The translations under genes and the position numbers were made by a program. Below, one piece after another: positions 52,485 through 60,493 of a stretch of DNA of 64,000 nucleotides; position 1 is the stretch's first letter, and each line of letters starts with the position of its first letter. Under the pieces are notes generated by a model that was not told the origin of the DNA, did not search any database, and saw only the letters and a program-made list of their open reading frames with translations. The stretch is taken from the NCBI RefSeq assembly GCF_011927695.1, contig NZ_JAATJE010000002.1, forward strand, positions 1 through 64,000, given 5' to 3'. The DNA comes from Sphingomonas jejuensis (GTDB taxonomy: Bacteria > Pseudomonadota > Alphaproteobacteria > Sphingomonadales > Sphingomonadaceae).

Positions 52485-52508
52485 GTGCTTCTGCGCAGGC
52501 AGGAGCAC
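52485..52508. repeat. 24-bp hairpin repeat (copy 1)
   Basis: GTGCTTCTGC (52485-52494) and GCAGGAGCAC (52499-52508) form a 10-bp stem with one G-T pair around GCAG. It lies between the convergent ends of paaR and the E2 gene and may act as a terminator. It belongs to the same repeat family as the copies at 58863 and 59198. Confidence 0.8.
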
Positions 52509-57443: not shown

Positions 57444-58847
57444 TCAGATGTGGATCGCCTTGCCGGTCACCGCCATCGCGGCTTCCTTCAGCGCCTCCGA
57501 ATGCGTCGGGTGCGCGTGGCAGGTCAGCGCGATGTCCTCGCTGGTCGCGCCGAACTCCATCGCCTGCGCGGCCTGCGCGATCAGCGTGCCCGCGAGCGAG
57601 GAGATGATGTGCACGCCGACCACCCGGTCGGTCGCGGCATCGGCGATCACCTTCACAAAGCCGGTCGTGTCGCGGTTGGTCTTGGCGCGGCTGTTGCCCG
57701 CAAACGGGAACTTGCCGACCTTGATCTCGCCCTTTTCCTTCGCCTGCTCCTCGGTCAGGCCGACGCCGGCGATCTCGGGGTGGGTGTAGACCACCGACGG
57801 GATGATGTCGTGGTTCACGATGCCGGTCAGCCCGGCGATGTTGTCGGCCACCGCGATGCCCTCGTCCTCGGCGCGGTGCGCAAGCATCAGGCCCGGCGTC
57901 ACGTCGCCGATCGCCCAGATGCCGTCCACCGCCGTCTCGAACTCGTGGCCGACCTCGATCTGCCCGCGGCCGTTCACCGACAGGCCGGCGGCCTCCAGGT
58001 TCAGGCCCTCCGTGTTCGGCCGCCGCCCGATCGACACCAGCACGGCATCCGCCGCCAGCGTCTCGGCCGCGCCGCCCGCCGCCGGCTCGACCGTCACGGT
58101 CGCGCGTCCGCCGTCAACCGCGACGCCCGTCACCTTGGTGGACACCTTGAGCTCGAAGCCCTGCTTCTTGAATATCTTGGTCGCTTCCTTGCGGACCTCG
58201 GCGTCGAAGCCCGGCAGGATCTGGTCGACGAACTCGACCACCGTCACCTTGGCGCCCAGGCGGCGCCACACGGAGCCGAGCTCCAGCCCGATCACGCCGC
58301 CGCCGATCACCACCAGGTGCTCCGGCACCTTGGGGAGCGACAGGGCGCCGGTGGAATCGACCACCACCTGCTGGTCGACCGTGACGCCGGGCAGCGGCGT
58401 GACGGACGATCCAGTGGCGATCACGATGTTCTTCGCGCGCACGCTGCGGCCATCCACGTCGACCGTGTCCTTGCCGGTGAAGGCGGCGCGCCCCTTCAGC
58501 CATTCGACCTTGTTCTTCTTGAACAGCATGGCGATGCCGCCGGTCAGCTCCTTGACCGCCGTCGCCTTCTCGTTGTGCATCGCGCCAAGGTCGAGCGACG
58601 CGCCCTCCAGCTTCACGCCGAACTTGGCGAGCTCGCCCGATGCGGCCTCCTCGAACAGCTCGGACGCGTGCAGCAGCGCCTTCGACGGAATGCAGCCGAC
58701 GTTGAGGCAGGTGCCGCCCAGCGTCTCGCGGCTTTCGACGCAAGCGGTCTTCAGCCCGTTCTGCGCCGCCCGGATCGCGGCGACATAGCCGCCGGGGCCC
58801 GCGCCGATCACCAGGACATCGAAATCGTAGCTCTGCTCGTCAGCCAT
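57444..58847 (-). CDS. lpd: Dihydrolipoamide dehydrogenase (E3)
   Basis: This 467-residue FAD enzyme reoxidises the lipoyl groups of the oxoacid dehydrogenases with NAD. The FAD motif is VIGAGPGGYVAA (residues 13-24), the redox disulfide is Cys47/Cys52 in GGTCLNVGCIPSKA, and the C-terminal active-site pair is in HAHPTHSEALKEA. It serves the suc complex and could also serve the E1-E2 pair at 52518-55786. A GIY-YIG gene with flanking repeats now separates it from sucB. Confidence 0.96.
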   Translation of the reverse strand: MADEQSYDFDVLVIGAGPGGYVAAIRAAQNGLKTACVESRETLGGTCLNVGCIPSKALLHASELFEEAASGELAKFGVKLEGASLDLGAMHNEKATAVKELTGGIAMLFKKNKVEWLKGRAAFTGKDTVDVDGRSVRAKNIVIATGSSVTPLPGVTVDQQVVVDSTGALSLPKVPEHLVVIGGGVIGLELGSVWRRLGAKVTVVEFVDQILPGFDAEVRKEATKIFKKQGFELKVSTKVTGVAVDGGRATVTVEPAAGGAAETLAADAVLVSIGRRPNTEGLNLEAAGLSVNGRGQIEVGHEFETAVDGIWAIGDVTPGLMLAHRAEDEGIAVADNIAGLTGIVNHDIIPSVVYTHPEIAGVGLTEEQAKEKGEIKVGKFPFAGNSRAKTNRDTTGFVKVIADAATDRVVGVHIISSLAGTLIAQAAQAMEFGATSEDIALTCHAHPTHSEALKEAAMAVTGKAIHI

Positions 58848-58862
58848 GTCTCACCTCGTTCA

Positions 58863-58886
58863 GTGCTCCTGCGCAGGCAGGAGCCC
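58863..58886. repeat. 24-bp hairpin repeat (copy 2), left flank of GIY-YIG gene
   Basis: GTGCTCCTGC, GCAG and GCAGGAGCCC form a stem-loop with one terminal mismatch. It matches the reverse complement of copy 3 at 23 of 24 positions. It lies 15 bp upstream of the lpd start. Confidence 0.85.
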
Positions 58887-58894
58887 AGGGTCGC

Positions 58895-59185
58895 TCAGAA
58901 GAGCGTTGGATATAGGTCATGCCATTGTGGATTGCCGCCCTCGATCAAGCGCAGCTTCCACGCACGTTTCCACTTCTTCATCTGCCGCTCGCGAAGACGG
59001 GCCGACTGAAGATCATCATGGGCCTCATACCAGTTGAGCAGTGTGCAGCCATGCTCCTTGGTGAACCCGTCCATTGATCCAGCACGATGCTGGTGCGCCC
59101 GGAGGATCAGGTTGCTCGTCACACCGACGTAGAGCGTTCCGTTCGGAGCGCTCGCCATCAGATAAACGAAGCCAGCCTTCTGCAC
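58895..59185 (-). CDS. Small GIY-YIG nuclease-family protein between two inverted repeats
   Basis: This 96-residue protein is nearly all GIY-YIG domain: FVYLMAS and TLYVGVTSNLILRAHQHRAG (about 4-33) hold the two motif halves with the catalytic Arg, and WYEAHDDLQSARLRERQMKKWKR carries the conserved Glu. GTG 59185 is chosen; longer frames only translate the repeat (MLLRRQEPGGR). It would cut DNA as a single-strand or structure-specific nuclease. It sits between sucB and lpd and is bracketed by inverted copies of a 24-bp hairpin (58863-58886 and 59198-59221), like a small mobile unit. Confidence 0.85.
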   Translation of the reverse strand: MQKAGFVYLMASAPNGTLYVGVTSNLILRAHQHRAGSMDGFTKEHGCTLLNWYEAHDDLQSARLRERQMKKWKRAWKLRLIEGGNPQWHDLYPTLF

Positions 59186-59197
59186 TTGTCTCCCCCC

Positions 59198-59221
59198 GGG
59201 CTCCTGCCTTCGCAGGAGCAC
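59198..59221. repeat. 24-bp hairpin repeat (copy 3), right flank of GIY-YIG gene
   Basis: GGGCTCCTGC, CTTC and GCAGGAGCAC are in inverse orientation to copy 2, with 23 of 24 positions matching. It ends 6 bp from the sucB stop codon. Confidence 0.85.
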
Positions 59222-59227
59222 GCGCGA

Positions 59228-60493
59228 TTACAGGTCGATCAGCAGCCGCGTCGGATCCTCGATCGCGTTCTTGATGGCGACCAGGAAGGTCACCGCCTCG
59301 CGCCCGTCGATCAGGCGGTGGTCGTAGGACAGCGCCAGATACATCATCGGCCGCACCACCACCTGCCCGTCGCGCACCACCGGCCGCTCCTCGATGCGGT
59401 GGAGGCCGAGCACGGCCGACTGCGGCGGATTGATGATCGGCGTCGACATCAGCGATCCGAACACGCCGCCGTTGGAAATGGTGAAGGTGCCGCCCTTCAT
59501 CTCGTCCATTTTCAGCGTGCCGTCCTTGGCGCGCTTGCCGAAGTCGCCGATCGTGCGCTCGATGCCGGCGACCGACAGGTCCTGCGCGTCGCGGATCACG
59601 GGCACGACCAGGCCGTTCGGTGCGGACACCGCAACCGACACGTCGACATAGTCGTGGTAGACGATCTCGTCGCCGTCGATCTGCGCGTTGACGCCCGGGA
59701 TGTCCTTCAGCGCCTGCACCGCCGCCTTCACGAAGAAGCCCATGAAGCCGAGGCGCACGCCGTGCTTCTTTTCAAACAGGTCCTTGTACTTGGCGCGCGC
59801 CTCCATGACCGCGGTCATGTCGACATCGTTGAAGGTGGTGAGGAGCGCGGCGGTGTCCTGCGCCTCCTTCAGCCGCCGGGCGACCGTCTGGCGCAGGCGC
59901 GTCATCTTGACGCGCTCCTCGCGCCGCTCGCCGGCGCCACCGGCAGTGGCCGGCGCGGCCGTCGACGGCGCGGGCGATGCCGCCGCGGCCTTCGCCACCG
60001 GCGCGTTCATCACGTCCTCGCGCGTCAGGCGACCGTCCTTGCCCGTCCCCTGGATGGTGGACGGATCGATGCCGCGCTCCAGGACCAGCCGGCGAACCGA
60101 CGGCGACAGGGTGGGCAGTTCACCCTCGCCGACGCTCGGCGCGGGGGAAGGCGCAGGTGCAGGTGCCGGCGCCTGGGACGGTGCCGGCGCGGACGCCGGT
60201 GCGGCAGCCGGCGTCGGCGTAGGCGCGGGTGCGCTCGCTGCGGCGGCACCGCCACCACCGGCCTCGATCGTCGCGATCGCCGCGCCGACCTGCACCGTGT
60301 CGCCGACCGCCACCAGCTGCTCGCCCATCACGCCGTCGGACGGGGACGGCACCTCGACCGCGACCTTGTCGGTCTCCAGGCTGACGATCGGCTCGTCGGC
60401 CTTCACCGGCTCGCCCGGCTTCTTCAGCCATTCGCCGACCGTCGCTTCCGTGATCGACTCGCCCAGCGCGGGCACCTGAACTTCGGTCGCCAT
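59228..60493 (-). CDS. sucB: 2-oxoglutarate dehydrogenase E2 (dihydrolipoamide succinyltransferase)
   Basis: This 421-residue E2 has an N-terminal lipoyl domain with the lysine in [13 protein letters not shown] (about 39-51). A long Ala-Pro linker (about 80-120) and the E3-binding domain [29 protein letters not shown] follow. The catalytic domain ends with the active His in [17 protein letters not shown]. It lies 42 bp after sucA. Confidence 0.96.

Follow-up and report, generated by a model that had tools for sequence, protein, structure and literature searches.

Two groups of REP systems lie closest to the locus described here. In RAYT/REPtron units a transposase gene sits between inverted REP hairpins, while the CGTC REP superfamily, present in five phyla and including the dRS3 repeats of Neisseria and RPE-4/RPE-6 of Rickettsia, is apparently without a dedicated transposase (Di Nocera et al. 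2013; PMC3733652). GIY-YIG proteins are absent from that account of the CGTC REPs (PMC3733652), and a search of the open-access literature for GIY-YIG joined with REP, RAYT, REPIN or dRS3 returned no relevant paper, although such an absence is not proof. We analysed a 64,000-nucleotide stretch of Sphingomonas jejuensis DNA (the window) in which a small GIY-YIG gene lies between two inverted hairpins. Given the bracketing of related genes and the close matching of enzyme residues to hairpins, these nucleases are likely to be the missing enzymes of a widespread REP class.

A boxed GIY-YIG gene between sucB and lpd

The 96-residue reading frame in the sucB-lpd spacer matched GIY-YIG (Pfam E = 3e-12; no other Pfam match). 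Consistently with the initial annotation, which had described this gene as bracketed by inverted 24-bp hairpins, the coordinates and the identity of the repeats were confirmed: GTGCTCCTGCGCAGGCAGGAGCCC at 58863-58886 (+) and GTGCTCCTGCGAAGGCAGGAGCCC at 59198-59221 (-) agreed at 23/24 positions, and the match continued to 28 bp (Table 1). Both flanking hairpins folded into an 8-bp stem with a 4-nt loop. The window copies carried CGTG or AGTG ahead of the stem, a GTG variant of the tag, and ended in CCCAG at one copy (a tail also found in relatives) and in CCCGG at the other. A third copy proposed by the same annotation was indeed present, as a looser match than the flanking pair. The hairpin core motif had five matches in the window, compared with about 0.05 per shuffled window. 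In the genome as a whole (2.96 Mb) hairpin copies were few; they included GCTCCGGCG-type places on contig C2 and, at C1:456070-456142, a head-to-head inverted doublet whose members are separated by 33 bp. For the sole Y1_Tnp match of this genome (L059, G000 C4:63232-63588), a check for flanking inverted repeats around the middle of its locus gave a best score of 14, from repeats unlike the window hairpins.

Table 1. Features of the GIY-YIG unit and its surroundings in the window.
Feature	Position	Strand	Remarks
REP hairpin 3' of nuclease gene, GTGCTCCTGCGCAGGCAGGAGCCCAGGG	58863..58890	+	stem 8, loop 4, tag outward
GIY-YIG nuclease, 96 aa	58895..59185	-	GTG start; K70-K71-W72-K73-R74 = specificity turn
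REP hairpin 5' of nuclease gene, inverted, GTGCTCCTGCGAAGGCAGGAGCCCGGGG	59194..59221	-	
Solo hairpin between convergent genes	52485..52508	+	3/24 positions differ; without CCCAG tail
lpd, host gene downstream of unit	57444..58847	-	
sucB, host gene upstream of unit	59228..60493	-	

The protein retains the conserved catalytic residues Y8, Y19, R29, H33, E66 and N85 (alignment A1). Its AlphaFold2 model (pLDDT 94.9) places X, W and Z of a K-X-W-Z-R motif in the turn between the E66 helix and the next helix, and the nearest solved folds were the UPF0213 proteins and the structure-specific nuclease Slx1. Codon comparisons indicate that the protein is under purifying selection, with dN/dS values of 0.13, 0.04 and 0.15 for three sets of orthologues, calculated without L236 and L351 (visible indels) and with stop codons skipped, a choice biased towards purifying selection, and with dS near or above saturation in two of the three sets.

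Bracketing and a residue-to-base code in related nucleases

A protein search of genome contigs yielded 39 relatives, from Sphingomonas to Bacteroidota, some under record titles that are possibly mis-assigned (a Chloroflexota bin, a Mesoflavibacter MAG), and a profile search was positive in 128 of 398 Pseudomonadota genomes, with up to 8 copies per genome; phage records gave no match. Inverted hairpins bracketed 125/168 (74%) of the related small GIY-YIG genes, against 25/3174 (0.8%) control placements of identical geometry inside the same loci. The bracketing cut-off (score >=14) was chosen after a first look at the data, but the contrast holds at 12 (77% vs 2.2%) and at 20 (52% vs 0.03%) and is thus independent of the threshold. 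The 74% itself is a descriptive figure, since the survey part of the set consists of the stronger matches and several of the Sphingomonas loci are near-duplicates (about 95% identity). The link between GIY-YIG genes and a REP-like element suggested by the initial annotation survived this check, since the genes of the subfamily are mostly repeat-bracketed. Related nucleases in several bacterial phyla are each boxed by their own hairpin type; genome G450 alone held six units, every hairpin fitting the class of its enzyme.

Among the weaker GIY-YIG matches (GAKYTRGR, HTAKxxPW and WSRAKK types), which were read for part of the genomes, the six GAKYTRGR-type (YhbQ-like) and three HTAKxxPW-type loci had no bracketing (best scores <=11). 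The small WSRAKK-type group (L270, L274, L275, L279, L280, L283, L285, L286, L288-L293, L298, L299) was bracketed in most cases by another palindrome, which is GTTCGTCCTGAGCTTGTCGAAGGAC-like. Two further arrangements were observed on the side. In L277 (G359) and L361 (Novosphingobium aromaticivorans plasmid pNL2) the GIY-YIG gene was flanked by the same 31-bp repeat, and the motif region of the two was near-identical; in L364, on a Planktothrix plasmid, a GIY-YIG gene had MmeI-type restriction genes on one side and DISARM genes on the other and was surrounded by many GTCATTCTGAGTGAAACGAAGAATCTC repeats.

Within the bracketed units, residues X and Z of K-X-W-Z-R predicted the variable base of the CCNGCG stem (G with E; A with A or S; failing these, T where Z is K and C with any other residue) in 56/58 units scoring >=14 with a hairpin fitting CCNGCG, an in-sample figure, the rule having been written on these units, which falls to 50/58 if the six units whose two hairpins differ, one being C and the other T, are taken as misses instead of being scored as T. 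L116 and L173 were the in-sample exceptions, and L140 was left out of the sample (its motif was misread by the pattern). In the controls, among pairs less than 45% identical outside the motif, the base was the same in 208 and different in 10 of those with the same motif, vs 4 and 401, respectively, of those with different motifs. Disjoint nearest-neighbour pairs comprised 21 same/same, 8 different/different and 0 discordant. Permutation confined to protein clusters gave p <= 5e-5 at three thresholds. The code held both between orthologues at one locus and between paralogues in one genome. Outside the rule set, residue and base switched together among sucC-sucD orthologues of one genus (8 new units), and L272, L273, L284, Neisseria gonorrhoeae (KKWNR with the dRS3-type CATTCCCGCG) and Azospirillum lipoferum (KKWNR with CCCCGCG) all fitted, while two units in the sucB-lpd spacer, L065 (KWR, frameshifted) and L069 (KWQ), did not, both having G. 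L268 (KQWHR with G) carries a residue outside the rule's coverage. In L065, L069 and L116, where the code is broken, EYxMK precedes the motif and the hairpins are of GTGCTCCGGCG type; in these three, residues besides X and Z may add to recognition. This covariation gives strong grounds to infer that each nuclease recognises its cognate REP hairpin.

The same results bear on whether the REPs merely land beside small genes as passengers or serve as terminators. REPs do prefer intergenic space and gene ends (PMC3733652), but such coincidence would predict neither the gap between 0.8% in the in-locus controls and 74% at the genes, nor the bare YhbQ-like and other distant GIY-YIG genes, nor a code at the level of single residues. 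We consider it extremely improbable, and the coincidence and terminator readings were set aside on the in-locus controls and the residue-to-base code.

Occupied and empty sites, and REP copy number

Comparison of 30 loci around lpd agreed with the expectation of empty sucB-lpd spacers in relatives: the unit was missing from most of the Sphingomonadaceae genera examined, several spacers measured 14-136 bp, some held two inverted REPs with no gene between them, and some held other sequence. For sucC-sucD, the 30 loci ranked best among 81 genomes of one genus were read: 13 sites were contiguous and empty (48-97 bp), eight carried the unit (apparently frameshifted in L236), two a REP pair only, two other short spacers and five unrelated sequence. 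At murC-murB we searched 196 genomes of genus g74, with L185 as the query. The 30 best contiguous matches comprised 29 spacers of 5-20 bp and a single hairpin in 82 bp (L315), and 20 further loci, chosen mainly for flanks lying apart, comprised the unit in nine (L339, L341, L344, L345, L350, L351, L352, L353, L356; the query is not counted), a different insert in ten and a truncated left hairpin alone in L355; these counts are not frequencies for the genus because the loci were selected. Three of the units had defects: an in-frame stop in L344, a 6-bp shortening in L351, and a motif arginine changed to cysteine in L353. The alternative insert (L338, L340, L342, L343, L346-L349, L354, L357) gave spacers of about 270-325 bp and had CCCCTCTCCCCAACCCTCCCCCGCAAGGGGGGAGGG arms.

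Full, REP-only and empty sites thus coexist within a genus or family. At the sites compared the flanks were too diverged for the exact insertion junction or a target duplication to be resolved, and many of the units at sucC-sucD and murC-murB appear to be orthologues passed on vertically, which makes movement rare or old. Two candidate comparisons were rejected: L203 and L210, a near-identical pair in one genome, as a recent transposition (the similarity runs about 100 bp beyond the left hairpin), and L102 with L205 (L102 sits at a contig end of short tandem repeats).

Long vertical inheritance at fixed sites, murC-murB among them, together with strong purifying selection and the Slx1-like fold, would suit a nuclease that serves the host, processing REPs as cruciforms or replication-stalling hairpins without mobilising them, the flanking REPs being regulatory or target sites. 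We regard this as unlikely, given the presence/absence polymorphism, the REP pairs that occupy the same spacers without a gene, the occurrence of up to 8 copies per genome with differing hairpins, and a copy number that tracks the enzyme. The recurrence of units in the same spacers of related genera and species might instead reflect homing, in which the nuclease would cut alleles that are empty or bear REPs, and recombinational repair would then copy the unit in. The GIY-YIG family does include homing enzymes, some of them free-standing, but recognition here tracks the element's own hairpin and not the host flank, and gene-free dispersed REPs are common, which makes a homing-like element distinctly improbable.

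The relation of copy number to enzyme type was examined by counting four hairpin patterns (C, A, G and T) in 54 genomes, a non-random set mostly picked for a known unit, plus 19 without a GIY-YIG match; a reversed-pattern control gave 0 in nearly all rows. Unit type was assigned from the flanking repeats, and two copies per unit were subtracted before the test. Genomes with a matching unit had more REPs of C type (p = 4e-6), A type (p = 8e-7) and G type (p = 3e-3, with a pattern looser than the other three), while for T type, whose pattern misses the window's GTGCTCC form, the difference across the 54 genomes was not significant (p = 0.08). None of the four REP types occurred in 13/19 GIY-negative genomes vs 2/35 positives. 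Some genomes departed from this relation: G001 had 70 C-type REPs but no unit of that type, the REPs of G341 and G326 likewise had no unit to match them, and G091 (L306) had 82 G-type REPs with no GIY-YIG match at E <= 1e-3, for which possible readings are that the enzyme was lost, that it diverged, or that another mobiliser acted.

A putative mechanism and its relation to known REP systems

We favour, with a probability of roughly 0.6, the reading that the unit is a hairpin pair with a cognate GIY-YIG enzyme that reads its own REP and nicks it so that REPs spread; in slightly wider terms, the nuclease probably nicks its own REP to spread or maintain it. The protein would bind the hairpin in single-stranded or cruciform-extruded DNA, the K-X-W-Z-R turn after the catalytic glutamate reading it and X and Z reading the variable CCxGCG base pair, and would nick beside the outward-facing tag, after which host repair would copy or insert the REP pair elsewhere. 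The gene would be kept between the hairpins in autonomous copies, and REP pairs and solo hairpins would be non-autonomous derivatives or remnants. Several points count against this reading. GIY-YIG chemistry passes through no covalent intermediate, and rejoining DNA would be beyond the enzyme by itself; in addition, the window genome holds few copies, the T-type test gave p = 0.08, some genomes hold REPs without a matching unit, and L065, L069, L116 and L173 break the code. We hold it to be an even bet that, across phyla, the CGTC-REP superfamily is mobilised by a family of GIY-YIG nucleases in which two residues spell out the hairpin that is recognised. If true, the CGTC REPs, including the Neisseria and Rickettsia repeats, would gain a candidate enzyme, and an unrelated enzyme class would join the RAYT transposases in REP biology. 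This would also go some way to account for the abundance of such repeats in some lineages and their lack in others, and would provide small nucleases that read sequence by a simple rule.

Comparison with described proteins and repeats places the unit as follows. YhbQ/UPF0213 proteins (1zg2, 1ywl) are likewise small stand-alone GIY-YIG proteins and come closest in sequence profile, with folds that are also among the closest, but their GAKYTRGR-type relatives have neither the K-X-W-Z-R turn nor REP bracketing. Slx1 has its fold in common with the window protein and acts on branched DNA; unlike it, however, Slx1 is eukaryotic, larger, partnered by Slx4 and has no known link to repeats. The CGTC REPs have stems of 8-9 bp and loops of 4-5 nt, a range that includes the window hairpins (8 and 4), and their CCA tail and head-to-head dimers were both found here too. 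Many of the repeats surveyed here around related genes read CGTCAT...ATCCA, the window copies carry the GTG tag variant, and the superfamily was reported as transposase-less, whereas here a gene sits between the repeats. RAYT/REPtron units share the layout of a single gene flanked by inverted REP hairpins, and their gene-free REP dimers elsewhere in the genome (REPINs) have a counterpart in the gene-free REP pairs seen here. Their enzyme, in contrast, is an HUH/Y1 tyrosine transposase and not a GIY-YIG protein, for which a covalent intermediate is not expected, and their hairpins are GTAG-tagged, as opposed to GTG in the window and CGTC-like in many relatives. The contrast that the initial annotation drew with RAYT systems consequently stands for the enzyme, which is GIY-YIG and not Y1, and needs amending for the repeats, which resemble CGTC REPs and not GTAG REPs (PMC3733652). 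Because enzyme and repeats both differ from those of RAYT/GTAG units, we rate the pairing as categorically new; greater weight on the common layout could class it with the REPtron kind.
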